From an uncultured Ruminococcus sp. (GTDB lineage Bacteria > Bacillota > Clostridia > Oscillospirales > Acutalibacteraceae): a stretch of 64,000 nucleotides of DNA. The DNA lies in contig CADBHB010000005.1 of NCBI GenBank assembly GCA_902794395.1, forward strand, positions 62,001-126,000. The letters are read 5' to 3'. Positions 10,822 through 32,090 of this stretch are shown in pieces. Below the pieces are notes generated by a model. The model did no database searches, was not told the origin of the DNA, and saw nothing but the letters and a program-made list of their open reading frames with translations. The first letter of the stretch is position 1. Every line of letters begins with the position of its first letter. The position numbers and the translations under genes were made by a program.

Positions 10822-10853
10822 AACATTTTTGCGAAACATTTTTCGTCAAACAA

Positions 10854-10890
10854 AAAAGGAACAGTTTCCTGCGGGCTGTTCCTTTTATTA
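10854..10890. terminator. Bidirectional terminator between convergent genes
   Basis: An 11-base-pair stem (10854-10864 with 10876-10886) has A-rich and T-rich flanks, so it can serve the dockerin gene on the plus strand and the small gene on the minus strand. Confidence 0.8.
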
Positions 10891-10917
10891 TTTGCGAAGC
10901 GCACCGAAAGCAAGCGG

Positions 10918-11196
10918 TCACTCGCTTAGGGGAGGTTCCTCTCTGAGCATAGAGTTCCTTGAGGTACAGCGCAGGACCACATTGTGATCCGGCATGATAA
11001 AGCTGAGGGCAAAGCCCTTTTTGGCATCGTAGTCGCGGGTAAGCTCCGCGCCCTCAAGGCTGAAATAGTAGTCTGTGTCGGTGGCTATCATCCAATAATA
11101 CACCGTCACCCTTTCGCCCGCGCGGTATTCATCCTTTGCGTTTTTATAACTGTATTTCTCGCCGCAGTAATCTACCTTGTACTTCTTTTTGAACAT
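10918..11196 (-). CDS. Small protein with one InlB-like beta module, no signal peptide
   Basis: 92 residues; not a family I can name. The sequence reads like a single divergent InlB-type module: it starts with KKKYKVDYCG, has a central RAGERVTVYYW stretch and ends with FIMPDHNVVLRC, the same closing pattern as the repeats in the secreted neighbour at 8494-10821. There is no export signal, so it is predicted to stay in the cytoplasm. The start has an AAGGAGG site and lies 14 bases after the LytTR regulator gene, so the two are almost certainly one transcript. Function unknown; a partner of the regulator is possible but is only inference from position. Confidence 0.7.
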   Translation of the reverse strand: MFKKKYKVDYCGEKYSYKNAKDEYRAGERVTVYYWMIATDTDYYFSLEGAELTRDYDAKKGFALSFIMPDHNVVLRCTSRNSMLREEPPLSE

Positions 11197-11210
11197 GGGG
11201 TGCAGCCTCC

Positions 11211-12017
11211 TTATTTTATTCTTTTCACCGCCATATCGCGAAAGGCGGTGTATTTCTTTTCGGGGACAGGCAGCTCGGTGCCGTCGGAAAGCGTGACCTT
11301 GAAACGGCGAATATTCTGTATATAGGCGGGGTTCACCAGGTAGCTGTGATGGCAGCGCAAAAACAGCCTTTCGTACTTTTTCGCCAGCGCGGAAACGGAA
11401 GCCGACGCCTGTATCACGCCGTCGACGGTGTATATCTCGCTGTGCTTTGAGCCGTGAGCTGCCGAGATGTACATTATAGTGTCGGACAGCACAAAGAAGT
11501 CCGACCTGTCCAAGCCGTGGAAGTGGATGCGTTTGCCGTGAGGCGGTTCGATGTGGTCGCGGTAGACCTCGCGGAAGTTGTTGGGATAGATAACGTCATC
11601 CTCGTGCTTTGGGTGCGGGTTTGAGATATGACAGACCAAAATACGCGGCTCTCTGCTCTTTTCCCCGTTATCATCGGCAACGACGCGCTCGCACCAGGTG
11701 AGGAGTATGCGCTGATACAGCGTGATGTCATGGTTGTCGGGATAATGCGTGGTGACATGAAAGCAGAGCATCACGTCGCAGCAGGAGGGGTTAGCGGAAA
11801 TGTGATTGACCTCCATATTTCCCAAAGAGAATTTTAAAGAGTGTTCCTCCGCTTTCCAAACGCGGATCATGTTTTCCCTGCCCCGCAAAAACTGTCCCTC
11901 GGCGGGACCGTACCACAGCGCGTCGGTATCCATGTATTCGAGGAACGGCATATAGTCGTTCTCGTAGTATTTGATGATAAGCTCCGCCGAAAGATCGGCG
12001 ATGGTTTGCTGGTTCAT
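11211..12017 (-). CDS. LytTR-family transcriptional regulator with SnoaL/NTF2-like N-domain
   Basis: 268 residues. The C-terminal 105 residues (about 163-268) are a LytTR DNA-binding domain: ISAAHGSKHSEIYT, LFLRCHHSYLVNPAYI, and LSDGTELPVPEKKY. Instead of a response-regulator receiver, the N-terminal 125 residues look like a SnoaL/NTF2-like alpha-beta barrel (ELIIKYYENDY, ALWYGPAEGQFLRGREN). In that fold the cavity usually binds or converts a small ligand, so this may be a one-component ligand sensor; that is inference. It is the first gene of a two-gene unit with the small InlB-like protein, and its own long, structured leader suggests regulation at that level. Confidence 0.82.
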   Translation of the reverse strand: MNQQTIADLSAELIIKYYENDYMPFLEYMDTDALWYGPAEGQFLRGRENMIRVWKAEEHSLKFSLGNMEVNHISANPSCCDVMLCFHVTTHYPDNHDITLYQRILLTWCERVVADDNGEKSREPRILVCHISNPHPKHEDDVIYPNNFREVYRDHIEPPHGKRIHFHGLDRSDFFVLSDTIMYISAAHGSKHSEIYTVDGVIQASASVSALAKKYERLFLRCHHSYLVNPAYIQNIRRFKVTLSDGTELPVPEKKYTAFRDMAVKRIK

Positions 12018-12153
12018 TCGCCTGCCCCTTTGCTGACCCTGTTTACGTTACGGCAGCGGCAAAAAGCCGATTTGCCGAGTGATTTTAAAATGGGATAAAC
12101 AGGATGCAAGGCTCCTATTTATCCCATTCCTTTAATGACCTATTATGCTTTAC

Positions 12154-12345: not shown

Positions 12346-12434
12346 TGGCGCAGCGGGTGGGATTCGAACCCACGGTACCCGAAGGTACAACTGATTTCGA
12401 GTCAGTCCCGTTATGACCACTTCGATACCGCTGC
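12346..12434 (-). tRNA. tRNA-Ser(CGA)
   Basis: Cloverleaf read on the minus strand: acceptor GCAGCGG pairs with CCGCTGC, discriminator G, and CCA is encoded. The anticodon arm is ACTGA-CTCGAAA-TCAGT, giving anticodon CGA, which reads UCG serine codons. A long variable arm (GTACC-TTCG-GGTACC) and a T arm with GGTTCGAATCC fit a serine tRNA. Total 89 bases including CCA. Confidence 0.95.
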
Positions 12435-12658: not shown

Positions 12659-14896
12659 TTACTTGCTTTGACGCTTTTTAACTATGGTCAGGTGGTTCTT
12701 TTCCTCGGAATAAACATAGAACAGCCTGTCGCTGAACTTCTTAACAAGGAAGATACCGAAGCCTCCCTCTTCCCTTTCCTCGACGTTTTCTGCGTCGGGG
12801 ATAGGAACATTCAGCGGGTTGAACGGAATTCCGCTGTCGGTAAAGGTGATCTCTGCCTCGTCGTCGGCAGGATCAAAGCTGAACGAGACGGTAAACGAGC
12901 CTGTTTTTCCCGGGTATGCATACCGCACTATATTCGCGCAAATCTCGTCGGCTATAACCCCGATCTTGGCGACAGAGGTGCTGTCAAATCCGGTTTCCGC
13001 GAGCATATTCTCAAGGAAAACGTATACCGGCTCGAGCCGTTCGAGTCTTGCCTCGACCGTGATCTCTTTGAAAACGCGGCAGCCGTTGAAAACGACCGAG
13101 AGCATGGTGATGTCGTCGGACTGTACCACGCCGTCGGAATACGCCTTGACGTCCGAAAAGACCCCGTCGCAGATCTCCTTAGCGGTGCCGTCGGCAGGCA
13201 GGGCGTTGAGCACGCCGCGAAGCCTGTCCTCGCCGTAAATATCATCGTCGGCGTTGACCGCCTCGGTGACTCCGTCGGTATAGAGGAACAGCGCGTCTCC
13301 CTTGGCGAGAATGAGCTTCCTCTGCTTATAACGAATGTCCTCATAGCCCGCAAGGACAAAGTCGGGAGGCTCGCAAATATACTCAAAGCTTCCGTCGGCG
13401 TGACGGACAAGCGGCTTGCAGTGCCCCGCGTTGACAAACGACACGCTGCCTGTTTCGGTATCGAGCGCGCCGAACCAGAGGGTAACGAACATATCGGCGC
13501 TGTTCTCCGCACACAGCACGTTGTTCGCGTTGAAAATGACCTCGTCGATATTGCGGTTTGCCTCGGCAAGGGACTTTATGATGGTCTTTGCCTTCATCAT
13601 AAACATAGCCGCGGGTATACCCTTGTCGGAAACATCCGCCACCAGGAACACAAAGCGGTCGTTGTCTGCAAAAAAGAAATCGTAAAAATCACCGCCGACC
13701 TGCTTGGCAGGGGTCATAAGCGCGAATATATCTATATCATGTCTTTCGGGGAAAGGCGGAAAGACGTTTGGAAGCGCCGAGGTCTGGATTGAGTGCGCCA
13801 GCGCCAGCTCCTTTTCAAGCCGTTCCGATTCTGCTTTGATGCTGCGCTTGAGCGCTGCTACGGTGGTGTTGATACCGTCGGAAAGCCGATTGAATTCGAC
13901 ATTGTCCCTGACGTCTATCTCAACGTCGAGATCGCCTTCCGTTATCTCGGAAAGCCCTGTGTTGATCTTCTCGATATTCCTAACTATCAGCTTGCTGGTG
14001 ATAGAATTTACACGCAGCAAAATGATGGTCAGAAGCAAGCCTACAAGAAAGGCGAACAGGATCAACAGCACCGTGATATTTCGGGTGACCTCGCTTTGCG
14101 GGATGAGAGCGGCGGCGTAATATCCGTCAGCCTGAACATACATTCCGTAATAAGCGGTATCTTTGAAATGTATGGTGAAAATATCCTTTCCGCCTTTGAC
14201 GGAAAGAAGGGTATTGATGTTCGCCTTCTTCGGGACGGCGGTTTGGTTTTCGCCGTCCAACTCAGGCGCGCTGACGATTTCTCCGCTTTGCCGCAGTATG
14301 ATGTCGAAGCCCTTTGCGCCGACCGTCCTTACGTTACAGATAGGCTCGCAGTAATAATCCAGCTCGGAATAGTAGGCGCTGCTTTCGTATTCAAGCACAA
14401 GAATACCCCTTTGTCCCAGCGAGCAGCCGACGTACTTCGTCCAGCTTTCCGACCCGAGGTCCTCGGCGGTGAGCCTTTTGGAATAGTAAGTGCCGCTGTC
14501 GGTACCGAGCAGTCGCGCGCGGAACTCCTCCAGAACAGGATCCTGTGAGGCGTTTGTGTTTGTCCGACTTTTTACATCGGAACAGAGCACGACGCCGTTG
14601 CCGTCAATATAGCTCCAGTGCGAGCAACCGAGCACGCTTTTCATGTCCTCCATGTATTCGGGGGTTATCTCTACTTCGCCTATGCCGCTGAACTTAACGC
14701 TGAAATAAGCGTCAAGCTCGTTGTCTATCTCCTTTGAGATCTCGTTTATCTGAGAGCGCAGCGTTGCCGACGTTGTAACGCTTATCATCAGCGGCACGAT
14801 GATGCCGATAAGAATGATAGAAACGCCCAGTATGACGGCGTAGACCGCAAACAGCTTGCGACGGTAAACTACCTGCAGCTTTTTTTGTTTTTTCAT
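12659..14896 (-). CDS. Membrane SpoIIE/PP2C phosphatase fused to RsbW-like ATPase
   Basis: 745 residues. A transmembrane helix (about 15-40), an extracytoplasmic sensor region (about 41-275), a second helix (about 278-300) and a HAMP-like linker precede a SpoIIE-type PP2C domain (about 385-605) with metal-binding GGDFYDFF, ADVSDKG, TDGVTEA and QSDDITML. The last 135 residues are a GHKL ATPase of the RsbW/SpoIIAB type with intact N-box (DEICANIVRYAY), DSGIPF and GGFGIFLVKK. In partner switching a phosphatase activates, and such an ATPase inactivates, a STAS protein by removing or adding phosphate on Ser. Here both activities are on one receptor-like chain, and the STAS gene is immediately upstream with a 4-base overlap. 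It is the last gene of the NRPS operon; no clear terminator follows. Confidence 0.9.
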   Translation of the reverse strand: MKKQKKLQVVYRRKLFAVYAVILGVSIILIGIIVPLMISVTTSATLRSQINEISKEIDNELDAYFSVKFSGIGEVEITPEYMEDMKSVLGCSHWSYIDGNGVVLCSDVKSRTNTNASQDPVLEEFRARLLGTDSGTYYSKRLTAEDLGSESWTKYVGCSLGQRGILVLEYESSAYYSELDYYCEPICNVRTVGAKGFDIILRQSGEIVSAPELDGENQTAVPKKANINTLLSVKGGKDIFTIHFKDTAYYGMYVQADGYYAAALIPQSEVTRNITVLLILFAFLVGLLLTIILLRVNSITSKLIVRNIEKINTGLSEITEGDLDVEIDVRDNVEFNRLSDGINTTVAALKRSIKAESERLEKELALAHSIQTSALPNVFPPFPERHDIDIFALMTPAKQVGGDFYDFFFADNDRFVFLVADVSDKGIPAAMFMMKAKTIIKSLAEANRNIDEVIFNANNVLCAENSADMFVTLWFGALDTETGSVSFVNAGHCKPLVRHADGSFEYICEPPDFVLAGYEDIRYKQRKLILAKGDALFLYTDGVTEAVNADDDIYGEDRLRGVLNALPADGTAKEICDGVFSDVKAYSDGVVQSDDITMLSVVFNGCRVFKEITVEARLERLEPVYVFLENMLAETGFDSTSVAKIGVIADEICANIVRYAYPGKTGSFTVSFSFDPADDEAEITFTDSGIPFNPLNVPIPDAENVEEREEGGFGIFLVKKFSDRLFYVYSEEKNHLTIVKKRQSK

Positions 14897-15192
14897 ATTA
14901 GCTCAAGAAAGCTCGCAAAGCCGGTGGACTCAAACACATCCAGCACCATTCCCGAGGCATGGCTGATAACCAGCCTTTTGCCCGTGCTTTTCAGGCGCTT
15001 GTGGGTAGAGTGCAGCACTCTGAGTCCCGCAGATGAGATGTACGCAAGCTTTTCCATATCCACCTCAACGACCGACCGATCCTCAAAAGCCGCTCTGAGC
15101 TCGGCGTCGAGCTGCGGCGCCGTAACGGTGTCGAGCTTGCCCTCGAGAAAAATGATAAGTCTGTCGTCTTGGGTCTGCCTGGTGATGTTCAT
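14893..15192 (-). CDS. STAS-domain anti-sigma factor antagonist
   Basis: 99 residues from the ATG at 15192, chosen because AAGGAGG precedes it; the frame is open further upstream but only inside the preceding gene. A single STAS domain with the phosphorylatable Ser in YISSAGLRVL (around residue 52-55), as in SpoIIAA/RsbV, and a preceding LEGKLDTVTA strand. Predicted to be phosphorylated by an RsbW-like ATPase and dephosphorylated by the PP2C protein encoded next. Its stop codon overlaps the phosphatase start (ATGA), implying coupled, near-stoichiometric synthesis. No sigma factor gene is nearby, so the target is open. Confidence 0.9.
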   Translation of the reverse strand: MNITRQTQDDRLIIFLEGKLDTVTAPQLDAELRAAFEDRSVVEVDMEKLAYISSAGLRVLHSTHKRLKSTGKRLVISHASGMVLDVFESTGFASFLELI

Positions 15193-15203
15193 TATTATCC
15201 TCC

Positions 15204-15956
15204 TTATCCTATGGTATGGATCATTTTGACAAATTCCTCGACCGTGATGTTGCGGCTGTCCCAAAATACGCCGTCTATAATTCCTTTTTGGAAATATTCT
15301 GACAGCTTTTCGGGGCTGAGGATACCGCCGTAGAAAAGAGGCATCTCGATAGGAAAGCCCGGGAGCGTCTTTTTCACAGTCTCCCTGATGGTCTTTAGCA
15401 TATCGAGGGTGTAGTCCTCGTCGGGGGTATACCCGCTGCCGAAATCCCACAGCGGACGGTAAACGGTACCTATTCTGTAATGCGCCTCGTAGGGGACCCT
15501 TGAATAGCCGGTGCCGAGCTGAGCCGCGATGACCTCGGCGGCTGTTCCCTTCTGTGCCATCTCGCGGGTCTCGCCGACACAAAGCATGGCTTTGAAGCCC
15601 ATGCCGAGGATGACTTCAAGGTTGTCTCGGGTCATTTCAGAAGTTTCGCCCAGGTAATAACGCCTGTCCGTAAGCCCTGTTATCGCCATGTCGGCGCCTG
15701 CCTCACGGAGCTTTTCGGGCGTCAGCTCGTCGGTTATCCCCTTTACCGAAAGGCTCTGCGAGGAGATCTTGACGAGCTTTCTGTCCGGAAACGCCGCGCA
15801 CACAGCCTCGAGCGACACGGCGGGGACAATGACAAAGAGCATTATCTCCTCTTCTCTTTCATACTGCTTTGTGCAGTCGCACAGGGTTTTTATGTCCTCG
15901 ATGATTTGCGCCGTCGTCTTCTCCGAAGTGAAGTTGTAGCAATAAAACTTCAGCAT
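15204..15956 (-). CDS. Triosephosphate isomerase-like protein lacking catalytic residues
   Basis: 250 residues, TIM length. The family scaffold is plain: ITGLTDRRYYLGET where isomerases have IxGHSERRxxxxE, then LCVGETREM, TVYRPLWDFGSG (YEPVWAIGTG in enzymes) and FYGGILSPE (YGGSV). By hand alignment all three catalytic residues are replaced: the active-site Lys by Thr10, the His by Leu95 and the catalytic Glu by Arg167. The phosphate-binding GG loop near the C-terminus is also gone (FWDSRN). It is therefore probably a pseudoenzyme. Its position between a MATE-ATPase fusion and STAS/PP2C genes, overlapping the former by one base (TAATG), suggests a regulatory or scaffolding part in the operon rather than glycolysis. 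A new aldolase-like activity on another substrate is an alternative. Confidence 0.85.
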   Translation of the reverse strand: MLKFYCYNFTSEKTTAQIIEDIKTLCDCTKQYEREEEIMLFVIVPAVSLEAVCAAFPDRKLVKISSQSLSVKGITDELTPEKLREAGADMAITGLTDRRYYLGETSEMTRDNLEVILGMGFKAMLCVGETREMAQKGTAAEVIAAQLGTGYSRVPYEAHYRIGTVYRPLWDFGSGYTPDEDYTLDMLKTIRETVKKTLPGFPIEMPLFYGGILSPEKLSEYFQKGIIDGVFWDSRNITVEEFVKMIHTIG

Positions 15957-17713
15957 TACGTCCTCCCTATCGTTATCAGCATATTATTCATTCCCAGGGC
16001 GCGGGTGTAGCTCACCTTGTCCGCCAGGGTGTTTATCATTTTAAGATTTGACAGCTCATCCTCGTCGTCGTGTACGGTTGCGGGGTCAAAGGCTTCGCCG
16101 TTGTCTCTGAACGATAGAATAATGCTATTGTCGGTTATACGACAGATAAGGTCTATCTGCGGCTGCTTTTTGTCGCTGTTGAATCGCCTGATGTGCTCAA
16201 CGGTTTCCTCGGAAAGCACGCCCGCGTAGTCGGCGCTCCTGCCTCTAACTCCGTTTTCGGCGCAGAAGCCGATTACCTGATCGGCGATCTCAGCCGCCTG
16301 CTCCGCCTTGGGACGGAGGCTTGCGTCAAACACAGCGCTGCAGTCGGTCTGGCGCTCGTGCAGCAGTATGCCGCTGTATCTGTCCTTTTTGACGCGGTAA
16401 ACGATAAAACAGATAAAAAATGTGATAGCTACAGTCAGCATTTCCGAAATAACGAACGCCCAGCTTGTGCCCGTAAGCCCGAACCTGTAGGAAAGGAAGT
16501 ACGCGAGCGGTACGGTGATAACAAGTCCGCGCAGGAAGGTGGTTATGACCGAAATGATCTTTTGTTTTGTCGCCTGAAGATAGTTCATTGTGACGCAGCA
16601 TATGCCCATTCCTATGAGGCTTATCGAGAATATACGCACGACGGGGATACCGATGGCGACGCGCTCGGGGCTTTTGATTGAAAACAGCGACAGCAGCAGA
16701 TTCGGGAAAATGAGTATGAAGGCGATTATAACCGCGCCCGACACGCAGACAAAAACGAAGGTTTTGCGCAGCACCATGTCGATGCCCTTATAATCACGTT
16801 CGCCGTACAGCAGACCTACTATCGGGGTCATGGTGTCGCTGCCGCCTGATACGAACATCGAAATAAAGGTCACGGTGAAATTGCAGACCGAAAACACCGC
16901 CATGCCGTCGGCTCCGGTGGAATCAAGCACGATGCGGTTGAGCAGCAGCGCCTTGACAAAAAGCAGGATGGTATTTACAACAGAGGCGATACCGCCGGTG
17001 CACAGCTCGCCGAGGTATTTTAGCTCTTCTTTTTTGAGAGCGATGAACCTCAGCGTGCGCTTTTTGAAGACAAACAGATAATACAGCTCCATCAAAAAGC
17101 CGACTGCGTAGCCCGTTACCGTAGCGAGCGCCGCTCCCGCGGTGTCCATTTTGAAAAGTCCCATGTAAACAAAATCCATGAGAAGGTTAACAATGTTGGA
17201 CACCAGCAGGATATTGGCGGAAAACTTCGGCATTCCGTCAACCCGAATGATAAATACAAGGTACGGCACCATTATCATAAACAGCGAGCCGTAGATATTG
17301 AACTGCGCGTAATGCTTTACATATTCTGTCAGCGTAGCGTCGCTGCACATCGCGGCGGTTATCACGTCGATAAGCAGCGTTCCCGCTATTGTAACTATGA
17401 CCGATACCAGCGCCGCTCCCCAGAAGGAAAGCGTAAACAGGGCGTTTGCCTTGCGGGCGTCGCGCTGACCCTTGGCGATAGAGATACTGATAGCTCCGCC
17501 TATACCGAAAAGGAAGAACATAGCCTGCATGAAGAGCACGACAGGCTCGGCGAGGTTTACGGCGGAAAAGGCGTTGTCGCTTACCAAAGCGGAAACGATG
17601 ATACCGTCCACAAAGGAAGCGAGAAGTATCGACATGGAGCTGATGATAGTCGGAAAAAGATATTCGTTGAACTTTCTGCCGAGCAGAACAGAGTTTCGCT
17701 GCAGCGCCATCAT
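15956..17713 (-). CDS. MATE-family transporter fused to degenerate RsbW-like ATPase domain
   Basis: 585 residues. The first 445 are a MATE exporter with about twelve hydrophobic helices and the usual internal duplication (ASFVDGIIVSAL near 30 and the later VSGGSDTMTPIVGLLYG). The C-terminal 135 residues (about 450-585) are a GHKL ATPase-like domain of the anti-sigma-factor type: the second motif DNGEAFDP is present, but the N-box Asn is not found (SEETVEHIRR) and the glycine-rich lid motif is replaced by LSNLKMINTLAD. This suggests a domain that no longer phosphorylates. MATE proteins export cationic or amphipathic compounds with Na+ or H+; here the likely cargo is the NRPS product. The ATG overlaps the NRPS stop by four bases (ATGA), with GGAGG inside the NRPS end. 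Confidence 0.88.
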   Translation of the reverse strand: MMALQRNSVLLGRKFNEYLFPTIISSMSILLASFVDGIIVSALVSDNAFSAVNLAEPVVLFMQAMFFLFGIGGAISISIAKGQRDARKANALFTLSFWGAALVSVIVTIAGTLLIDVITAAMCSDATLTEYVKHYAQFNIYGSLFMIMVPYLVFIIRVDGMPKFSANILLVSNIVNLLMDFVYMGLFKMDTAGAALATVTGYAVGFLMELYYLFVFKKRTLRFIALKKEELKYLGELCTGGIASVVNTILLFVKALLLNRIVLDSTGADGMAVFSVCNFTVTFISMFVSGGSDTMTPIVGLLYGERDYKGIDMVLRKTFVFVCVSGAVIIAFILIFPNLLLSLFSIKSPERVAIGIPVVRIFSISLIGMGICCVTMNYLQATKQKIISVITTFLRGLVITVPLAYFLSYRFGLTGTSWAFVISEMLTVAITFFICFIVYRVKKDRYSGILLHERQTDCSAVFDASLRPKAEQAAEIADQVIGFCAENGVRGRSADYAGVLSEETVEHIRRFNSDKKQPQIDLICRITDNSIILSFRDNGEAFDPATVHDDEDELSNLKMINTLADKVSYTRALGMNNMLITIGRT

Positions 17714-20700
17714 TCATCATCCTCCGATTCAAAGAAGCCCAAGCCGTCCAGCGCTGAGATAAAGCTGCTCATATAATCGCGCGAGGTCATCGACCAGCTG
17801 AAGCCCAGCCTGTAAAGCGCCTGAGTAGTGTATTCGTTATCGACGGAGATCATCTCTACTGTCTTTGAGCTGTCCTTGTTGTCATAAGCGAGCAGAGTAG
17901 TGAGCTTAGCCGCCTTTACAGGGTCGCTTTGAGCCTTTGCGAGCATCTTCAAAAACTCGTCGTCCTCAACCAGTTTTATATTCATTCCCATGTCGCGCAT
18001 TTGAAGTATGACGTCGCCCAGGGGTACGTAATGGTTGTTGAAGGGATGGAACACGCAGCATTTGTCGGGAGCGGAGCAGAGCCTGACGATAGCCTCGGCG
18101 GTTTCGTCGATAGGAGCCATCTCTACAGGGTAATTCATCATGCTGTAGGGGTACGCGCCTATGACCAGATACGCCCTTAGTCTGCCCATAAAGCCGTTGG
18201 TAACAAAGTTTATCTGGAACTCGCCGTCGCTGTCGCGCGCGGAGAGGTTGCCTACGCGCATGATCTTGCCCCTCAAGCCGTCTTTGACTGCCTCAAGAAC
18301 ATAGCGCTCCGCAATAAACTTGCTGTGGACGTACTGATTGTCGATGACCTGTCCGAAGTAGAGCGATTGCTCTGTTAGCCTGAGGTCGGCGGACGGGCGG
18401 CCGTTGACCCTGTCGCCGGCTACGCTGCCCGTTGATACCTGAACGATCATGCTGTTATGCTCTTTGCAAAAGGCTATGAGGTTTTTAACTGCCTCGGCGT
18501 TTACCTTCTCGATGTCATTGGTCTCGGAAAAATGCTTTACAAGCGCGGCGCAGTTGATTACGGTGTCGATATGCGCGTCTTTAAGCCCGCTGAACCATTT
18601 TGTATCGGTAACGCTGCCCTCAACCACTGTAACGCGGTTTTCAAAGCAGCCCTCAAAATCGTCCTCAAAGTAGTAATAGAGCTGACCCCTCAGGCGCTGC
18701 TCGGCGCTCAGGCGCTTTGACGAGCGCAGCAGGCAGTAAACATGGCCGCTGTAGTTGTCAAGGAAGAACTTGAGGATGTGGACTCCGAGGAAGCCCGTGG
18801 CGCCGGTGAGAAGAAGATCGCCGACGCGGTTTTTATTTTCTTTTAGAGAATCAAGATCGTTTGCGGCGAGGATGCCGTCAAATACGGAGTAGTCGTAATC
18901 GGCGAGGTCGTCGATGAGCTCGGAATTATCCGAGCATTTCGCGGCGATAGCCTTCGGGGTCTTGAGCGCGAATATATCGCCGTAGGAGACCTCCAGCCCC
19001 TGCTCGTTAGCTTCGACAAGCACGCTTGTTACCGTAAGCGAGGTTCCGCCCAGGTCAAAGAAGCTGCTGTCGGCGCTGACCTTCTCTAAAGAAAGCACCT
19101 TTTTGAATATCTCGCAGAGTATTTTTTCCTCGCGGGTAACAGGCTCGGTATATGCCGCCTCAAAGCTTATCCTCGGCTGAGGCAAAGCCCTGACGTCGGT
19201 TTTTCCGTTCGGCGTCTGAGGCATTTCGTCAAGGCGCATTATCGCGGCGGGTATCATGTAGGCTGTAAGGCGCTTTGAGATATGCTCACGAACCGACTCC
19301 TCGGTGACAGAGGGAGCGGCGCTGTACCACGCGCAAAGGTTGTCTGTACCGTTGATGGGACGGATGAGCACGACAGCCTGATTGACTCCGTCGCAGGAGA
19401 GGATAGCGCGTTCCACCTCGCCCAGCTCGATCCTAAGACCTCTGAGCTTGACCTGATTGTCGCATCTTCCCAGAATGACCACGTCGCCGTCATCCGTCCA
19501 GCGCGCGTAATCTCCCGTTTTGTAAACGCGCTCGCCGTTGTATTCCTTAAAGCTCTTTTCGGTGAGCTCGGGATTGTTGAGATAACCCTCCGCGACTCCC
19601 GCTCCGCCTACATACAGCTCGCCCACTATGCCGACAGGAAGCGGATTGCCGTCGGCGTCAACTATATACTCGGTAACGTTGAGCAGCGGTCTGCCGACGC
19701 ATACCGTATCGGAGCGGGTAAGCTCCTTGGCGTTGCAGGAAACGGTGATCTCGGTGGGGCCGTAGGTGTTGAATATCCTTGCCCCTGTGGTTTTTTTGAG
19801 ATTTTCAAGCAGCTTGGGAGAGTATTTCTCGCCGCCGCACATGATTATTTTGCAGCCCGCGAGCACCGCCTTGAAATCTTCGAGCATCATATACTGCTCT
19901 ATTCTGGACGGCGTTGCGTTTATAACGTCGCCGCCGGTGCGCCTGAACAGCGCGCAGAGCTTTAGCGGGTCCTTCGTTTCGTCCTCGTCGGCAAGCACGA
20001 GCGTCAAGCCGTTGCAGAGGGAGGCTGCGGTCTCCTTGAGCGACATATCGAACGAGACCGTGGTGACCGAAACATAAACGCTGCCCTCGTTTTTCAGCGC
20101 GTGGATGTGGGTGTTTTCGGGATAAGGCGTTAAGTAGTTCGCGATAGATTCGTGCTTAATTATAACGCCCTTGGGTCTGCCGGTTGAGCCTGAGGTATAG
20201 ATGAGATAGGCGGTGTCGCCCGGCTGAACGTCCGCCGCGGGGTCGCTGTCGTTTCCGTTTCGGATAAGCGGCTCGATCTCGAGCTCGTTTTCAAAGCCGC
20301 GCGGTCTGTCGGTGACGATGTATTTCGCCCCGCTGTTTTCGAGGATGTATTTTATCCTGTCGTCGGGATATTCGGGGTCGCAGGGAATATACGCCGCGCC
20401 CGTTTTGAGGATAGAATAGATAGCTATTATCTGGCGGCTGGTGCGCGGGAGAAGGAAAGCGACCCTGTCTCCCCTGCCGACGCCCTTTTCGATAAGCGCG
20501 TTGGCAACGCGGTTGCACTCGGTGTTCAGCTCGGCGTAGGTGTAGGCTCTGTCGCAGGCGATAAGCGCGGTCTTGTCGGGAGTTTCGGCAGCGCGCGCCT
20601 CAAACAGCCTGTGGTAAAACTTTGTTTCGATAGTTCGTGCCTGAACACAAGAGAAGGCTTTAAGCTTCTTTCTGTCGTCATCGGTGAGCATGCTGATTTT

Positions 20701-23700
20701 GCAGAGTTTTTGCGAGGCATCCGCGATGATGGACGCGGCGCTTTGGGCGATAGATGCCGAGATGGACCCCGCAAGCTTTTCGCTGTACAAGGCGGAATCA
20801 TACTGAACATTTACCGCTATTTTGCCCTCTGCGCCGTCCTCGATATGGACGGAGAGCTTGAACTTCGGCAGCGGATTGGTGATGACGCTTTCGATTATCT
20901 CGGCGCCCTCGAGCACGGCGGTCTCATTGACGCCGAGCTGGCAGGCGTAGTTGATTTTTGAAGCAAAGCCGTATTTTTCAAACAGCTTTATAAACGGGTA
21001 GGCGCTGTTTTTCTGCGCCGCGCGGATGGAGGAAGCGGTATCAAGGACGAATTGAAGCGCGGTCCTTTCGCTGTCGATGCAGGCGTGCAGAGGCAAGCTT
21101 TTGACAAACATTCCGAGCGAGTCCAAAAAGCGGATGTCCTCTCTGCCGCCGGAGATCATCGAGATATACACATGGCGGTCGGCGGTGCAGCGGCTGACCG
21201 CGTACTCGGTAGCGGCGAGGAAAAGCGCGGCGGGAGTAAGCGAATTATCGCGGCAGAAAGCGTCTATCGCGGCTCTGTCGAGATATGTGACAGCCTCTCT
21301 CAGCTCGCCCTCCTCGGAGCTGCCGTTCAGATCGGCTGAAATATCGGAGGCGTTCTCGTAATCGGCAAACAGCTCGCGGTAATAGCCGAGCGCTTTTTCG
21401 CCCTGCTCGCTGTGCTCAAGCTCCGCCTCCTCAGCGATATAGCTGTAATAGGAGGTATCGGTCTCGGGTCGGGTGCCGTTGGTGTAGATGTCGGCAAGCT
21501 TTTTGATGAACGCGGATAGCGACAGCCCGTCGAAAATGATGTGGTGGGCGTCAAAAAGCAGCAGGACGTTTTTCTCGGTGCTTATTATCTCACAGCGGAA
21601 AAGCGGTCCGCGCGAGAGATTGAAGGGCTTTACAAACTCCGCCTCCTCCGCGGCGGCGGCAGCGGTATTCATGGTGAGTACGGGGATGTCGTATTCAATG
21701 CTGTCCGGCTGCTTTTGGACTATGTCCTTGCCGTCGAGCACAACTACCGAGGTCAGTACGGGATTAGCGGCGATGAGCAGCTCAAGCGACTTTTTCAGTC
21801 TGTCGACATCAGTGCGCTTAGAGAGCGTGTACTTCATGGGGATATTGTAGATGAGCGCGTCGGGACGCTTCATGCTGTCGTAGTAAACACCGAGCTGCTC
21901 GGCGCAGAGCGGTACCCTGTTTGTCTCGGCTTCAATTCTGATTTCGGAGCCTGCCGCCCTTTTGTTAAGAAGGTTCTCGATAATGAGGTTTTCTACCGTG
22001 AGCAGAGAACACTCTTCATCCATCAGCTCCGCCGCTCCGGTTTTCAGCCCAAAGCTCTCAAAGAGCTTGGCGGAAAACATGATGGTCGTAAGCGAGGTGA
22101 GCCCCAGCGACACAAGGCTGTCGGTCACGTTTTTGGTTTCAAAGCCCGTGATTTCGCTGACCATGGCGCAAAGACGTTCCTCGAGCATATTGAGCGCTCT
22201 TGCGCCCTGCGCCTCGTCCTGACTCTGCACCGACGGCTCGGGCAGCTTGCGCTTGTCGACCTTGCCGTTTGGATTTATGGGTATCTTCTCGATCTGCATG
22301 GTGACAGAGGGCACCATATACTTGGGCAGCTCTTCCGAGATAAAGCCGTTAAGCGCGGGAACGTCGATCGGGGAATCCGACACAACATAGGCGATGACCG
22401 CCTTTCCTCCGCTGGGGAGATCTCTGGCGATAACAGCGGCGTCCTTCACCCCGTTGAACTCGCGGATACGGCGCTCTATCTCGGTAAGCTCGATGCGGAA
22501 GCCGCGTATCTTTACCTGCTCGTCGCGTCTGCCGACAAACTGCACGTTGCCGTCGGGAAGATAGCGGCACACGTCGCCTGTGAGATACATCCTCTCGTAC
22601 CCCTCGAAGTCGAAGAACGGATTGCGGATGAACTTTTCGTCTGTAAGGTCGGGGCGATTGAGGTATCCGCGCGTGACGGGATAGCCCGAGATAACAAGCT
22701 CGCCCACCGCGCCCGCGGGCAGCAGACGGTTCTGCTTATCTACGATATAAATATCGCAGTTGCCGAAGGATCTTCCGATAGGAACAGAGGCGTACCGCTT
22801 GTCTATGAGGTAATCGGTGACATAGATAGTACATTCGGTGGGACCGTAGGTGTTGACAAAGTCGAAGCAGGGCGGTTCACAGGGCACCAGCTTTTCGCCG
22901 CCGACGGTGAACGTCCTCATGTAAGGGCTTTCGGGATATGCCGTGATATACTGCCTGCCGAGCTGGGTGGTGCAGTCCATCATGGTTATTTTGTTGCCGA
23001 TGACGAACTCGTGCAGCCCTACCAGATCGAGTCTGGTTTCCTCGGGAACGATATAAACCGAAGCTCCGGCGGTCAGCGCGGGATAAAGATCCTGCATAGA
23101 GGCGTCAAAGCCGAAGGCGCCGTAGGCGGAGAAGCGGTCTTTTTCGGTGATATTGAATCTATCGCAGAAAGCAAGGCAGAAGTTCACAAGGTTGCGGTGC
23201 TCAAGCATGCAGCCCTTCGGCTTTCCCGTGGAGCCTGAGGTGTAGATGAGCGCGAACAGCGAATCCGCTAAAGGCGGCGTAAGCTGCGCTTCGGTATTTT
23301 CGGGAAGGTCATATATCTCATTCGCAGAGAGGATGAGTCCGCCGTAGCCCTCGATGATCGGGGCAAGCTCGTCGTCGGCTATGACTACCGGCGCTTTTGA
23401 ATCCTCCAGCATATACATCAGCCTGTCGCTCGGATAGTTGCTGTCGAGCGGCTGACACGCGCCGCCCGCCTTCAGCACCGCGAGGGTGCATACCGGAAAC
23501 AGCTCGCTGCGCTTTACCATGATGCCGACGGGCACCTCGCGGGTAACGCCGTTTGAAGCAAGGAGCTTGGCGAGGTTTTCGGAATACTGATCGAGCTGCG
23601 AATACGTGAGGCTCTTATCCTTAAAGCTGACGGCGATATTGTCGGGGCAAAGCTCTGCCTGCCTGCGGAAAAGGTCGACCATGGTGAGCGAACGATCGAA

Positions 23701-26667
23701 TTCAAGGCGGTTGTCGTTAGCGGCGCGGTAAAACGCCTTTTCCCTTTCGGTGCAGAAGCTGAGGTCCGAAAGATTATTACATTCAAGCAGACCCTTGACT
23801 ATATTTATGTAAAGATAGGCGAAGTTGTCGATGGTTTCCTCAAGGTAAAGGTCGGCGCGGTACTCAAAGGAGAGCGTGTAATCGTCCTCTCTTTTCAGCA
23901 CGTCCAGCGAGAGCTTTGACATGGCGTCGCCTGATTTATGGATGCGGTACGGCACAAAGCTGCCGTTGAAGTCCACGCCGTTGAGCATTTCGCCCTGATA
24001 AACAAAGATGATGTCGGAATTGACCTCGTATGAATTGGCAAGCTGCACAATGGAAACAAGGTCGTGGCTCAAGCTGTCGAAAAGCAGCTCCTGAACTCCG
24101 GAAAGGTAGGAGGAGACCTGAGCGTTTTCATCGATATTCACACAGACGGGAAGAGTGTGTACCAACATGCCGTAGGTGTTTCTCAGCTCGGGAATGTGTC
24201 TGCCGTTCTCAACTGTGCAGAAAAGCGACTGATCCTGACCGCCCTGCTTGGCGAGGGCATAGGCAAAGGCGCCGAGGAAAAGCGAGTTTTCGGTGATGCC
24301 GAGCTTTTTGCAGACCTCGGCTACGCGGGGAACGCTAAGGTGATCCTTTAAAGCAAAGGTTTTGTGCGCGCCGATGACCTGCGGCGGGTCGTCGATTTGA
24401 TCGGGGATGATGTTTGAATCGGTCTCGACGCCGGCGAGCATTTTGTCATAGAACTTCATGCACTCGTCGTAACGCGCGCTCTGCTTCAGCTTTTGCTCGT
24501 AGGAGCTGAGCATGAAGCCGTTGACGTCCTCGCGCTCGGGAAGCTCGCCCATAAATATCCTTGCGAGGTTGCGGATAAACACCGAGGTGGAGGTGCCGTC
24601 GGTTATCAGGTGGTGGACGTCGTTGAAGAAGTAAAGTCCCGCGGGGGTGACAAATACCTTGAAACGGAACAGCGGTCCGTTTTCAAAGTCAAAGGGCTTT
24701 ACGAAGTCCGCGCAGAGCTTATCGGCGTCGGTTTCGTCGGTGGTTTCCACATCGACGCCGATCTTCATATCCCTGACGGGAACAACGCAGGGCTTGCCGT
24801 CGATGACCCTGGCGCAGACCCTCATAAAGGGATAAAGCTCTGCGGTCTTTCTGACAGCCATGACCAGCTTTTCGGGGTCAATGCCCATTTCAACCGGGAA
24901 GAACATAGAAGCGGGGTTATTGTATTCAAGGCTCTGCGGCTGCCGTGAATTTGCGAGATATATGCCGAGCTGAGCGTCGGTCATGGGATAAGCGGACTTT
25001 TCCTCATATTCAAAGGAAACATTCTCACTGTCGCCCGAGCCGGCGGCGATAGCCTTGGGGGTCCTAAGCGAGAATATCTGAGCTGAGGAAAGGCAAAAGT
25101 CCGCAAGCTCCTCCTGTAGCATGACCGCCTTGATAGAGTCGCCGCCGAGCGAGAAGAAGTCGTCGTTCACGCCTACCCTATCGACCTTTAGCAGCTTTTC
25201 AAATGCCGCGCACACCTGCTTTTCCGCCTCGGTTTCGGGAGCGGCGTACTCGGTTTGGAAATCGGAGGCGCAAGGCTCTTTGAGAGCCTTGCGGTCGAGC
25301 TTGCCGTTAGGTGTCAGCGGGAACTCGTCTATCTTGACCAAAAACCGAGGTATCATATACGGCGGGAATTTTTTGGAGAGCGTCCTGCGGATCTCAGCGT
25401 CGCTTAGCTCTCTGTCCGAGGTGTAGTAGCCGCAGATATAAGTCTGCCCGTTATCGTCGGTGAAAGCCTTGACCACGGCGGTCACGATGCCCTCGATCTT
25501 GCCGAGCTGTACCTCTACCTCGCCCATCTCGACCCGCTGACCGTTTACCTTTACCATCCAGTCCTTGCGGTTAACATATACGATACTGCCGTCGGGGAGC
25601 TTTTTGCAAATGTCCTTTGTGTGCAGCAGACGTCTGTCGGAATCATCTACCGAGTACGGATTTTCGGTGAAAACCTCGGCGGTAAGCTCGGGAAGGTTGA
25701 TATAACCCCTAGCCATAGTGCCGGCGATACATAGCTCGCCCTCCTCGCCGTCAGGTACCTGTTTTCCGTTTTCATCCAGCAAATACGCCTTGAAGCCCGA
25801 AAGCGGTCTGCCGATGGGGGTATTGTCATACGCCTTATCCAGCTCGAAGGTCATAGCAATACTCAACACCTCGCTCAAGCCGTAGGCGTTCTTGATATGG
25901 GCGTATGGGCTGTAGATGCCGCTGATGCGCTCGCCGCCGCTGTTGATGAGCTTGAGGCTGCTGTCTCGTACGGGGAGCTGCTTTAAAAGCTGCGGGCTGA
26001 TGACAGCCGAGGTGATGTGATGGGTGTCGATGTATTCGTTTATAAAAAGGATGTCCTTGCGCTGGGCTTCGGTGAGGATATGGATTTCCGCGCCCGCCCA
26101 AAGCGAGGTAAGTATATCATGGGCAGAGATAGCGAAATTGAAGGGCGTGACGCTTAGCTCAACGTCGTCGAAGCCCGCGCCAATCTCAAGCTGCCTTACT
26201 ACGGCGTTTGTGTACGACCAGTGATCGTGCAGGATGCCCTTGGGATTTCCGGTGGAGCCTGAGGTGTAGATAGCTATGGCAGCGTCCTCCATATGTATTT
26301 CGGGAAACTCGGAGAGTATCCTCTCGTTTTCGATATTCTTGAGGAAGTCCTCGTCGACCGCGAAATCGGCTCCGCTGTCCTTTATTATAAAGTCTACCCT
26401 GTCCTTGGGGTATTCGGTGGAAAGCGGAGAGTAAGCCGCGCCCGATCGCAGGATGCCGAGAATAGAGGCGATATATAAAAAGCCGCGCTCAAGGACGATC
26501 GGGTACACCTTTTCCCTTTCCGCTCCCCTGCGGAGCAGGCGTGAGGCGATTTTTGCGCTTAGCCTTTCAAGCTGCGCGTAGGTCATTTTTTCTTCCATGC
26601 ACACCAGCGCGGTCTTGTCGGGATGAGCCGCCGATATGCTGAGGAAACGTTCGATAAAGTTTTGCAT
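17710..26667 (-). CDS. Three-module NRPS with terminal thioester reductase (A-T-C-A-T-C-A-T-R)
   Basis: 2985 residues from the ATG at 26667, preceded by AAGGGGGAT and a promoter; an upstream extension would run through the promoter. Domains: A1 1-465, T1 with Ser511, C1 560-975 (HHLITDG, His686), A2 995-1478, T2 with Ser1525, C2 1580-1995 (HHIIFDG, His1709), A3 2010-2498, T3 with Ser2543, and a short-chain-dehydrogenase-type reductase 2610-2985 (TGATGFLG, Tyr2779/Lys2783). A1 has Ala179 where amino-acid-activating domains carry Asp, while A2 (Asp1188) and A3 (Asp2207) keep it, so A1 may load an acyl acid. Hand-read pocket codes: A1 AIHVNGASIK, A2 DAQDTGTIYK (Glu/Gln-like), A3 DMKNMGTVSK (unclear). 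No thioesterase; NAD(P)H-dependent release as an aldehyde is expected. First gene of the operon with MATE, TIM-like, STAS and PP2C genes. Confidence 0.93.
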   Translation of the reverse strand: MQNFIERFLSISAAHPDKTALVCMEEKMTYAQLERLSAKIASRLLRRGAEREKVYPIVLERGFLYIASILGILRSGAAYSPLSTEYPKDRVDFIIKDSGADFAVDEDFLKNIENERILSEFPEIHMEDAAIAIYTSGSTGNPKGILHDHWSYTNAVVRQLEIGAGFDDVELSVTPFNFAISAHDILTSLWAGAEIHILTEAQRKDILFINEYIDTHHITSAVISPQLLKQLPVRDSSLKLINSGGERISGIYSPYAHIKNAYGLSEVLSIAMTFELDKAYDNTPIGRPLSGFKAYLLDENGKQVPDGEEGELCIAGTMARGYINLPELTAEVFTENPYSVDDSDRRLLHTKDICKKLPDGSIVYVNRKDWMVKVNGQRVEMGEVEVQLGKIEGIVTAVVKAFTDDNGQTYICGYYTSDRELSDAEIRRTLSKKFPPYMIPRFLVKIDEFPLTPNGKLDRKALKEPCASDFQTEYAAPETEAEKQVCAAFEKLLKVDRVGVNDDFFSLGGDSIKAVMLQEELADFCLSSAQIFSLRTPKAIAAGSGDSENVSFEYEEKSAYPMTDAQLGIYLANSRQPQSLEYNNPASMFFPVEMGIDPEKLVMAVRKTAELYPFMRVCARVIDGKPCVVPVRDMKIGVDVETTDETDADKLCADFVKPFDFENGPLFRFKVFVTPAGLYFFNDVHHLITDGTSTSVFIRNLARIFMGELPEREDVNGFMLSSYEQKLKQSARYDECMKFYDKMLAGVETDSNIIPDQIDDPPQVIGAHKTFALKDHLSVPRVAEVCKKLGITENSLFLGAFAYALAKQGGQDQSLFCTVENGRHIPELRNTYGMLVHTLPVCVNIDENAQVSSYLSGVQELLFDSLSHDLVSIVQLANSYEVNSDIIFVYQGEMLNGVDFNGSFVPYRIHKSGDAMSKLSLDVLKREDDYTLSFEYRADLYLEETIDNFAYLYINIVKGLLECNNLSDLSFCTEREKAFYRAANDNRLEFDRSLTMVDLFRRQAELCPDNIAVSFKDKSLTYSQLDQYSENLAKLLASNGVTREVPVGIMVKRSELFPVCTLAVLKAGGACQPLDSNYPSDRLMYMLEDSKAPVVIADDELAPIIEGYGGLILSANEIYDLPENTEAQLTPPLADSLFALIYTSGSTGKPKGCMLEHRNLVNFCLAFCDRFNITEKDRFSAYGAFGFDASMQDLYPALTAGASVYIVPEETRLDLVGLHEFVIGNKITMMDCTTQLGRQYITAYPESPYMRTFTVGGEKLVPCEPPCFDFVNTYGPTECTIYVTDYLIDKRYASVPIGRSFGNCDIYIVDKQNRLLPAGAVGELVISGYPVTRGYLNRPDLTDEKFIRNPFFDFEGYERMYLTGDVCRYLPDGNVQFVGRRDEQVKIRGFRIELTEIERRIREFNGVKDAAVIARDLPSGGKAVIAYVVSDSPIDVPALNGFISEELPKYMVPSVTMQIEKIPINPNGKVDKRKLPEPSVQSQDEAQGARALNMLEERLCAMVSEITGFETKNVTDSLVSLGLTSLTTIMFSAKLFESFGLKTGAAELMDEECSLLTVENLIIENLLNKRAAGSEIRIEAETNRVPLCAEQLGVYYDSMKRPDALIYNIPMKYTLSKRTDVDRLKKSLELLIAANPVLTSVVVLDGKDIVQKQPDSIEYDIPVLTMNTAAAAAEEAEFVKPFNLSRGPLFRCEIISTEKNVLLLFDAHHIIFDGLSLSAFIKKLADIYTNGTRPETDTSYYSYIAEEAELEHSEQGEKALGYYRELFADYENASDISADLNGSSEEGELREAVTYLDRAAIDAFCRDNSLTPAALFLAATEYAVSRCTADRHVYISMISGGREDIRFLDSLGMFVKSLPLHACIDSERTALQFVLDTASSIRAAQKNSAYPFIKLFEKYGFASKINYACQLGVNETAVLEGAEIIESVITNPLPKFKLSVHIEDGAEGKIAVNVQYDSALYSEKLAGSISASIAQSAASIIADASQKLCKISMLTDDDRKKLKAFSCVQARTIETKFYHRLFEARAAETPDKTALIACDRAYTYAELNTECNRVANALIEKGVGRGDRVAFLLPRTSRQIIAIYSILKTGAAYIPCDPEYPDDRIKYILENSGAKYIVTDRPRGFENELEIEPLIRNGNDSDPAADVQPGDTAYLIYTSGSTGRPKGVIIKHESIANYLTPYPENTHIHALKNEGSVYVSVTTVSFDMSLKETAASLCNGLTLVLADEDETKDPLKLCALFRRTGGDVINATPSRIEQYMMLEDFKAVLAGCKIIMCGGEKYSPKLLENLKKTTGARIFNTYGPTEITVSCNAKELTRSDTVCVGRPLLNVTEYIVDADGNPLPVGIVGELYVGGAGVAEGYLNNPELTEKSFKEYNGERVYKTGDYARWTDDGDVVILGRCDNQVKLRGLRIELGEVERAILSCDGVNQAVVLIRPINGTDNLCAWYSAAPSVTEESVREHISKRLTAYMIPAAIMRLDEMPQTPNGKTDVRALPQPRISFEAAYTEPVTREEKILCEIFKKVLSLEKVSADSSFFDLGGTSLTVTSVLVEANEQGLEVSYGDIFALKTPKAIAAKCSDNSELIDDLADYDYSVFDGILAANDLDSLKENKNRVGDLLLTGATGFLGVHILKFFLDNYSGHVYCLLRSSKRLSAEQRLRGQLYYYFEDDFEGCFENRVTVVEGSVTDTKWFSGLKDAHIDTVINCAALVKHFSETNDIEKVNAEAVKNLIAFCKEHNSMIVQVSTGSVAGDRVNGRPSADLRLTEQSLYFGQVIDNQYVHSKFIAERYVLEAVKDGLRGKIMRVGNLSARDSDGEFQINFVTNGFMGRLRAYLVIGAYPYSMMNYPVEMAPIDETAEAIVRLCSAPDKCCVFHPFNNHYVPLGDVILQMRDMGMNIKLVEDDEFLKMLAKAQSDPVKAAKLTTLLAYDNKDSSKTVEMISVDNEYTTQALYRLGFSWSMTSRDYMSSFISALDGLGFFESEDDE

Positions 26668-31700: not shown

Positions 31701-32090
31701 CGCGAAGATATTGAGTTCATTGTCTATGCCCGTGAAAGCGGAGCCGCTTGTTGATTTAACGGTCAGATGTGCGTTGTTACAGAGAATAAGGTTGACTGTT
31801 CCCGAAAACATTACAGCGGATTTGCCTGTAACGTTTATGATCACATTGCCCCGTACAACGTAATTTCCGGCTGACCACTTTCTCATTATTTGGCCGTCGT
31901 AGATTTTGACAATGTTGTAGTCGGTAATGGTCTGCTCTGTGCCGTCCGCGCCGATGTAGGTGACAGAATCATCAAACGCGCCCGCCGAAAGCGTTACCAC
32001 CCCCGACAGCGGCGTGAAGGTCAGCAGCAGCGCAAGGCTGAGTATCGCCGCCAAAACGCGCCGTATCGGTTTTTGAGTTTGATTTTTCAT
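28710..32090 (-). CDS. Secreted dockerin protein with beta-helix, InlB/GLUG-like and BspA-LRR modules
   Basis: 1126 residues with a signal peptide (1-37). Modules in order: a repetitive beta-helix-like region (about 55-290, resembling bacterial carbohydrate-binding beta-helix proteins), an InlB B-like module closing with FTMPASNVTV (about 345-410), GLUG-like repeats (about 480-670: GLVGRMWGE, GFIGEQNGT, GFIGRTMNN, GFVGWRDKN), further beta modules, BspA-type DUF285 repeats (about 850-960: FDTSRVNDMSNMFYYCKKL), and a C-terminal type I dockerin (about 1055-1120). No catalytic motif is seen. Probably a binding or adhesion subunit displayed through a cohesin. It has its own promoter and a GGAGG ribosome site. 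Confidence 0.85.
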   Translation of the reverse strand: MKNQTQKPIRRVLAAILSLALLLTFTPLSGVVTLSAGAFDDSVTYIGADGTEQTITDYNIVKIYDGQIMRKWSAGNYVVRGNVIINVTGKSAVMFSGTVNLILCNNAHLTVKSTSGSAFTGIDNELNIFAQSTGSSKGKLTATGVSGIHCGSLNVYGGEVTFEGASYGLHLEYSNDAANGLTVNGGDVSIVNHTDDQAAIYNENSVGHVIVDGGTLTVSNSGGGNAIEFFDSIAFKDGTANITGNITYFSTLALNGGNVTIEGGLGGLDDDASDNEVILDYQRPTDKYKITNLNKLNDDDDYTVKVAENKTVSADGTSYTGTLTAEQRAAISGKDITPFFGTVTVADGITGGTVTADKTSDLIYGDTVTLTVTPKTGYTGGTVTVRDSSNNVIEVNNNQFTMPASNVTVSATFTHDSAYFSQDGDTYTIHDAAGWDVFCDCLQDNDTYNRFSGKTVELGDNITVSRMAGSSHHDFCGTFEGSGKTLTFTPTESVNGTAPFSYVSETTPTGGTAVSHPVICNLNVVCDITTSATHASGLVGRMWGELTIANCTVSGTITSSNKYACGFIGEQNGTAHITNCRSSVEINSSVNGDGTHGGFIGRTMNNTSTCIEGCVFDGKIVSTGDDATTSCGGFVGWRDKNGSLTITDSLYAPTADDNAVADGATFARNWTMPDNANSYYTRTLGTAQGKQAYTITAGDDVTLGLSGTPTEYNVSGINVYSSGIEYNGNLYAGSGDTVALSLNYTGTPAAGYTVKGYTASAGTLSGSTLTMPEDNVTINADFDVESYFDEETGTLTLKGTVLNGDNGIVLPDGVNKNDVLHINVDSSGATLPQDSSYLFSSFDNVTSIDLTGADTSGVKNMYGMFFQCQNLRKLDLSSFDTSRVNDMSNMFYYCKKLATLDLSGFDTKNVYGMVSMFESCTGLTTIYVSNEWSTVSADYHSLMFTWCYNLTGGNGTAFDPDYIDKTYARIDKEGQPGYLTGTYALTLPDHMEIVTDADEDMMVGSRCLKGAVVKVKPKAGYIASNVKANGTDLTADENGVYTLTVTENTEITATLTELLIGDANGDGKVNVLDVTAIQRHLAEVEPLAGISLLNADTNGDGSVTVDDVTLLLQYLAEFDVTLGSHT

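Follow-up and report, generated by a model that had tools for sequence, protein, structure and literature searches.

A lid-less RsbW-like tail on a MATE exporter as the possible output of a sigma-less partner switch in a Ruminococcus peptide operon

An operon of five genes in an uncultured Ruminococcus sp. places a non-ribosomal peptide synthetase (NRPS) that ends in a reductase next to a MATE exporter with an RsbW-like tail and to the genes of a partner switch. We propose, with a confidence that falls just short of even, that the exporter is the output of the switch, that the STAS protein docks on the exporter's tail, and that a sigma-less switch sets peptide export in this way. The operon would make and export a short peptide, probably an aldehyde, released from the NRPS by reduction, and its export, possibly along with its synthesis, would be governed by a partner switch with no need for a linked sigma factor. 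The membrane receptor would sense something outside through a Cache-like domain, and its SpoIIE/PP2C phosphatase and RsbW-type kinase would work against each other in setting how far the STAS protein is phosphorylated. One STAS form, most likely the dephosphorylated one, would dock on the MATE tail, which would bind it but add no phosphate, and this binding would either open the pump or shut it. A TIM-like protein, here called pseudo-TIM, would be a dead-enzyme accessory of the exporter in one lineage. Partner switching is known mainly as sigma-factor control, and an exporter fused to what seems to be a non-catalytic version of the switch's kinase offers a concrete target for a sigma-less switch. 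This also bears on the timing of reactive-peptide release by microbes of the gut and rumen.

The window, by which we mean the whole stretch of 64,000 nt that was analysed, covers positions 62,001-126,000 of contig CADBHB010000005.1 (C5) of assembly GCA_902794395.1, a genome of 2.2 Mb in 51 contigs. The operon is tight and occupies 12659-26667 of the window on the minus strand. It comprises the genes for the NRPS (17710-26667, 2985 aa, with its first ATG at 26667 in an open frame that extends to 26835), the MATE exporter with its C-terminal RsbW-like domain (15956-17713, 585 aa), the pseudo-TIM (15204-15956, 250 aa), a single-domain STAS protein (14893-15192, 99 aa, likely starting at the ATG at 15192) and a membrane receptor (12659-14896, 745 aa) with Cache-like, HAMP, SpoIIE/PP2C and RsbW-type kinase domains. 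The NRPS and MATE genes overlap by 4 bases, the MATE and TIM-like genes by 1 base and the STAS and receptor genes by 4 bases, while the TIM-like and STAS genes are separated by 11 bases with an AGGAGG-like site, and the gene junctions across the set are operon-like. Pfam matches over the cut-off were AMP-binding, Condensation, PP-binding, NAD_binding_4 (the reductase), MatE, TIM, STAS, SpoIIE, HAMP and, in the receptor, HATPase_c_2. The single minus-strand unit of the preliminary description, which was made from the DNA letters, is thus borne out for all five genes, by their near-touching or overlapping ends as well as by their Pfam domains.

The exporter has two MatE repeats (PF01554, two stretches, 102.6 bits) followed by a tail of 145 aa plus stop (15956-16393, minus strand). 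Against HATPase_c_2 this tail scores 18.2 bits, the Pfam cut-off being 27.4. Its AlphaFold model, built from 29 sequences with a mean pLDDT of 82.4, has an RsbW/SpoIIAB-type fold: the top solved folds found by Foldseek are RsbW in the RsbV/RsbW complex (E 1.5e-7) and SpoIIAB, with TM (by query) of 0.57-0.72 across the first 18 matches. The "MATE-ATPase fusion" of the preliminary description therefore holds in that the tail is RsbW-like by its model, and has to be qualified in that the tail falls below the Pfam cut-off and lacks the kinase motifs. In the tail of the window the Glu of the N-box is retained, the Asn is replaced by His, and the glycines of the ATP lid are gone. This loss is general. 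Among 48 MATE tails, a set in which some are near-duplicates (L077 and L125 stand for a single locus) and one, L088, is truncated, lid glycines were present in one, the N-box in 25 and G1 in 38, against 48 of 48 for each motif in receptor-linked or free ATPases, which were picked by a profile built from 17 of them that may favour intact ones. Tails away from NRPSs have the lid in 0/17 and the N-box in 7/17, and the sole lid-bearing tail among the 48, at locus L167, looks kinase-competent. Loss of the lid suggests that the tail is a binding module rather than a kinase; with its fold kept and its ATP lid lost, it should bind the STAS protein without phosphorylating it. Among the matches listed in open-licence titles and abstracts we found no description of a MATE protein with an RsbW-like tail, and the lid-less tail as the likely output of the switch, together with its NRPS-independent tie to the switch, is likely to be new here.

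The strongest evidence for this tie comes from loci that have no NRPS. SpoIIE places above 150 bits, which are of the RsbU type, numbered 15 in 60 whole genomes, or about 0.1 per Mb with rounded genome sizes. Three of them lie beside an NRPS (two of these in the present genome) and 12 do not, some being on contigs of about 10 kb, so that the link to NRPSs is best seen as one use of a general module. The preliminary description had held that its proposal would fail if the regulatory genes were found mostly away from NRPS genes; this is the case for the module generally (12/15), and it is not the case for the NRPS-linked subset. A search of 300 genomes with a profile of the tail returned as its top nine places NRPS-linked MATE tails (E 2.5e-42 or better), all at loci already found with the reductase. 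Of the next 23 places, 20 were examined, the others being L225, a known PP2C-ATPase and the ATPase of a locus on the reductase list. Sixteen of the 20 encode MATE-tail proteins, and four (L257, L261, L263 and L264) are PP2C-ATPase proteins that were left out of the MATE tails. With L225 this makes 17 MATE-tail loci without an NRPS, and PP2C, STAS or ATPase genes are present at 12 of these 17 (11/16 without L225, which entered via its PP2C); the other five show no switch genes, some of them on short contigs. None of the 17 has condensation, carrier or reductase domains, and L249 has one weak adenylation-like match. Plain-MATE loci, hand-picked from lists, 20 to a control, with open frames of 447-501 aa, had switch genes at 0/20 in 11 other genomes of the family (326 kb) and again at 0/20 in 13 of the 15 tail-bearing genomes (311 kb), compared with 221 kb surveyed at the 17 tail loci (Fisher 3e-6 for each control). 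The second control was run because the genomes of the first mostly lacked RsbU-type phosphatases; one genome, G014, the source of L225, contributed to the first control as well as to the tail set. The comparison of 12/17 with 0/40 ties tail to switch independently of any NRPS.

These loci also bear on the alternative that the direct target of the STAS protein is the NRPS, through its activity or its assembly, with the association with the exporter secondary. Switch genes do accompany a reductase-ended NRPS without a MATE tail at L093-L097 and at several Bacteroidales loci, as such a mechanism would predict. However, the switch genes at 12 of the 17 MATE-tail loci have no NRPS to act on, and Pfam shows no additional docking domain in the NRPS of the window, and we regard direct action on the NRPS as distinctly unlikely. 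At L251, near a MATE-tail gene, a gene at 10451-12040 encodes a protein with an N-terminal STAS domain, a middle part that by eye is APH-kinase-like and a C-terminal RsbW-type ATPase, a domain order that is similar in L245, L248 and L254.

Covariation of the tail with the switch proteins gives modest support, which fits competition for the STAS protein or pairing of tail and kinase alike. Across 22 loci, controlling for R and MATE, the partial correlation of tail with ATPase was 0.48 (reached in 0/1000 permutations) and that of tail with STAS 0.185 (6/1000), and the membrane part of the same MATE proteins gave -0.03 with ATPase and -0.12 with STAS, controlling for R. With eight well-separated loci, tail-ATPase was reached in 21/1000 permutations and tail-STAS in 125/1000, which is not significant, and MATE-PP2C was also raised (22/1000); with another distance and 23 loci, the values were 0.40 for tail-ATPase (0/2000) and 0.17 for tail-STAS (87/2000). 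That tail-ATPase covariation exceeds tail-STAS covariation would be expected if information flowed the other way, with the MATE tail pairing with the receptor kinase and the transporter reporting its own traffic, the output being elsewhere. RsbW and SpoIIAB, the nearest folds to the tail, act as dimers, which is in keeping with such a pairing. Against this, no other output gene is common to the loci seen, and tail and module also occur together in archaea and at loci without an NRPS; we judge such flux sensing unlikely. Docking of the STAS protein on the exporter remains our preferred reading. The earlier suggestion that the cassette tunes synthesis or export of the peptide directly is shifted towards export: the exporter is favoured over the NRPS as output because the link of tail and module persists without an NRPS and because the two co-vary.

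Around NRPSs that end in a reductase, the set recurs widely. Searched with the reductase domain, 300 genomes of the same family gave 37 places, spread over 31 of them, and 17 of the 20 best places (at least 233 bits, the window included) adjoin partner-switching genes, with gene order and strand differing among these loci. In the three exceptions (G154:C35, G298:C17 and G196:C171) a contig start truncates the NRPS, or the NRPS lies fragmented close to one, and the visible side has no switch gene. The 17 weaker places have only one STAS gene, of the SpoIIAA type and at the locus edge; the STAS protein of locus L109 (FMDSSGVG, SpoIIAA type) was left out of the cassette counts. Set against the background density of RsbU-type phosphatases given above, switch genes beside the best reductases exceed chance. 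A wider scan, in which nine reductases were run against a collection of 84,980 species genomes, yielded at least 595 stretches, at least 574 of which encode relatives. Among the best 80 of these relatives, which were analysed, 37 loci have a switch gene, 40 a MATE gene, and 57 either of these or a pseudo-TIM; for the 28 loci of at least 21 kb, the counts are 17 with a switch gene, 16 with a MATE gene and four with none of these. Loci with switch genes include records that carry the labels Ruminococcus, Lachnospiraceae, Bacteroidales, Raoultibacter and Methanobrevibacter. The gene-neighbourhood comparison that the preliminary description had called for thus finds the set not only beside the best reductases of the family but across genera and phyla, including Methanobrevibacter. 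It could be supposed that the set was simply carried along with one NRPS lineage as horizontal transfer spread it, its parts not being directly coupled, and in favour of this the link follows the top-scoring reductases. But the set stays together though gene order and strand vary, and tail and switch stay linked without an NRPS, which makes this explanation very improbable.

The membership of the set varies among these relatives, and the cases in which tail and switch part company count against the exporter as output. Five of them (L127, L128, L129, L131 and L132) have a MATE tail without adjacent switch genes. Eight genomes in which the MATE-tail locus is bare or cut were searched, and all eight have receptor matches elsewhere, the best being 34-43% identical outside the genome of locus L123; in the genome of L122, the nearest relative, in which a contig end interrupts the locus, the best match is 39% identical. 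Two such matches in genomes without an adjacent cassette are a STAS-PP2C-ATPase set without an NRPS (L242) and a lone PP2C (L243). A rule that the ATPase is fused to PP2C only where the MATE is tailed was considered and dropped, with exceptions at L169, L170, L172, L184 and L192. In Bacteroidales loci with switch and NRPS but no MATE tail, another gene lies between the STAS and NRPS genes. That of L151 (2513-3835) encodes an Alginate_exp-like outer-membrane barrel, just below the cut-off; a gene of similar size occupies the same spot in L158, L160, L162, L191, L193, L197, L199 and L200, and those of L158 and L193 resemble that of L151 by eye. The present genome has two further sets: on contig C9 (36000-50000; L039, 5507-12135), a PP2C, a separate RsbW-type ATPase, a STAS protein, an A-T-C NRPS of 997 aa and a tail-less MATE; and on contig C6 (L040, 6104-8489), a third STAS-PP2C-ATPase set, beside which no NRPS or MATE gene was seen.

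No sigma gene was found in the 64-kb window, which has no SigF-type open reading frame, and none of the 12 Sigma70_r2 places of the genome is on contig C5, in agreement with the preliminary description that no sigma factor is encoded here. The STAS protein could nonetheless act on an anti-sigma/sigma pair elsewhere, the operon being merely co-located with the targets of the switch. The 12 Sigma70_r2 places offer candidates, among them genes that by eye are SpoIIAA-like, SpoIIAB-like and SigF-like and lie together on contig C41, which has HATPase_c_2 and Sigma70_r2 matches, and the 12 of 15 RsbU-type phosphatases away from NRPSs also fit such transcriptional control. However, the set on C41 has its own STAS protein, and a SigF query, which would miss distant sigma types, matched in only one of 129 NRPS-survey loci (L081, where no cassette was seen) and in none of the 20 lower-scoring loci of the tail-profile search. 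Methanobrevibacter provides a further argument. In L169 and L195 of this archaeon, PP2C, ATPase and STAS genes are divergent from the NRPS and MATE-tail genes; in L155, STAS and ATPase genes are about 6 kb off; L188 and L196 have a STAS gene only; and two loci of about 6 kb (L182 and L198) show no switch genes. Sigma70_r2 was over the cut-off in 0/7 such genomes, all of them MAGs or uncultured assemblies, with one sub-threshold match at 21.4 bits, while the same search was positive at 12 places in the present genome and in 10/14 control genomes. The set thus seems able to persist without a sigma output, and its occurrence in archaea in which no Sigma70_r2 was detected suggests that the switch can follow a logic in which sigma has no part; we consider transcriptional control improbable. 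More broadly, and tentatively, since we hold it at somewhat under an even chance, MATE proteins with lid-less tails may be a class of partner-switch-gated transporters that is widespread among bacteria and archaea. In these a STAS phosphoswitch would act directly on secretion instead of on gene expression, with NRPS operons as one use and, in one lineage, the dead TIM as an added input.

The neighbourhood is not wholly new, as a similar one has been noted in an archaeon: mru0066-mru0071 of Methanobrevibacter ruminantium M1 comprises an NRPS with two serine phosphatases, an anti-sigma factor antagonist and a MatE efflux protein on its flanks, neighbours that, as its authors suggest, may sense the environment, regulate expression of the NRPS and serve export (Leahy 2010, PMC2812497). 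The end domain of the M1 NRPS is given as a thioesterase in the main text of that report and as a thioester reductase in the legend of its Figure S8. In contrast to the present analysis, its passages on this neighbourhood are silent on sigma-independence, on a TIM-like gene and on any RsbW-like tail of the MATE protein. The switch itself resembles RsbU-RsbV-RsbW and SpoIIE-SpoIIAA-SpoIIAB, as outlined in PMC8256260, in its PP2C phosphatase, its STAS protein with a phosphorylatable Ser and its HATPase kinase, and differs from them in that no linked sigma factor was found and in the second, lid-less RsbW-like domain that forms the tail of an exporter. SypE-SypA of Vibrio fischeri and BtrUVW of Bordetella are also non-canonical partner switches, and SypE has kinase and phosphatase in one protein; their outputs are biofilm or type III secretion, the target of SypA is described as unknown, and the accounts consulted mention no transporter fusion. 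SspH of Streptomyces, a single-domain HATPase regulator that requires its conserved residues N54 and D84, likewise affects antibiotic output but is described as a global regulator of biosynthetic-gene expression (PMC9137472). In TciK-TciR of Vogesella an RsbW-like domain is similarly tied to production of indigoidine, but as a receiver-RsbW fusion in a two-component system, according to the excerpt consulted (PMC12826045).

The receptor and the STAS protein have the features expected of a working switch. The phosphatase domain of the receptor scores 156 bits with PF07228, and its blocks GGDFYDFF, ADVSDKG and SDDITM are conserved in the alignment, with the aspartates that we take to be metal ligands present. 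Its ATPase has the N-box, G1 and lid glycines. The ISSAGLR loop with its conserved phosphorylatable Ser is common to the aligned cassette STAS proteins. For the N-terminal part of the receptor, a model from only four sequences has a mean pLDDT of 77. The top two structural matches of this outer part are models of integrative chemoreceptors, and double-Cache domains make up most of the best solved matches that follow, among which is also the periplasmic domain of Chlamydia RsbU; these matches are weak, with TM of about 0.3 or less by query and up to 0.45 by target. Sensing of an external cue through the phosphatase receptor, as the preliminary description had supposed, looks feasible with this Cache-like outer part, given the weak structural matches.

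The NRPS has the domain order A-T-C-A-T-C-A-T-R. Pfam counts three AMP-binding, two Condensation and three PP-binding domains and NAD_binding_4, the middle T domain being recognised by the motif LGLTSL. The condensation (HHLITDG and HHIIFDG), carrier (three PCP serines) and terminal reductase (GATGFLG and YVHSK) motifs are intact, so that release by reduction is expected; judged by these motifs, the product is probably a short, reductively released peptide, an aldehyde, and probably reactive. The adenylation codes are AIHTNGASI (A1), DAQTTGTIY (A2) and DMKDMGTVS (A3). A1 is without the Asp that usually holds the alpha-amino group of the substrate, which may mean that A1 loads a cap other than an ordinary amino acid. 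Among the matches listed, the closest reductase, 94% identical, is from a MAG labelled uncultured Ruminococcus. Gut NRPS pathways for peptide aldehydes, including that for ruminopeptin, have terminal aldehyde products, in line with the terminal reductase encoded here, and such aldehydes are reported, in the portions consulted, to inhibit proteases (PMC12327764, PMC8518294).

The pseudo-TIM is a TIM by profile (PF00121, 104 bits). The catalytic residues of TIM, Lys12, His95 and Glu165 in yeast numbering, are replaced by Thr or Ser, by Leu or Phe and by Arg, respectively, in all 12 full-length homologues, two rows of which (L077 and L125) are one locus. Pairwise dN is 0.08-0.20 and dS 0.43-2.2, with most dS values near saturation. 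Loss of the active site together with low dN relative to dS indicates that the protein is probably maintained for something besides isomerisation. Close homologues (E at most 1e-30) occur in 5/60 genomes of the same genus, the present one included, and in 8/80 NRPS loci (the best 80 of at least 574 relatives), in one of them, L133 of Raoultibacter, in pieces only; the other TIM matches annotated in the 300 family genomes (L031-L038) are ordinary TIMs or sugar-pathway TIM-like genes. At L128, L129, L131 and L132 the pseudo-TIM has no adjacent switch genes, and it therefore tracks the MATE-tail gene and not the STAS gene; at L127 the MATE tail is present and the pseudo-TIM absent. With so few homologues, four of them without adjacent switch genes, the pseudo-TIM was rejected as a general marker of the cassette. 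We found no description of a pseudo-TIM in an NRPS operon among the matches listed in open-licence titles and abstracts, and a dead TIM within this operon type is new here. The pieces at L133 (12943-13962) follow the MATE-tail gene in differing frames, with an ambiguous base nearby.

Downstream of the receptor, past a tRNA-Ser gene (12346-12434), the window encodes a LytTR-domain protein (11211-12017) that is probably outside the operon. Large, secreted-looking proteins with terminal repeats that by eye are dockerin-like are encoded at 8494-10821 and 28710-32090.
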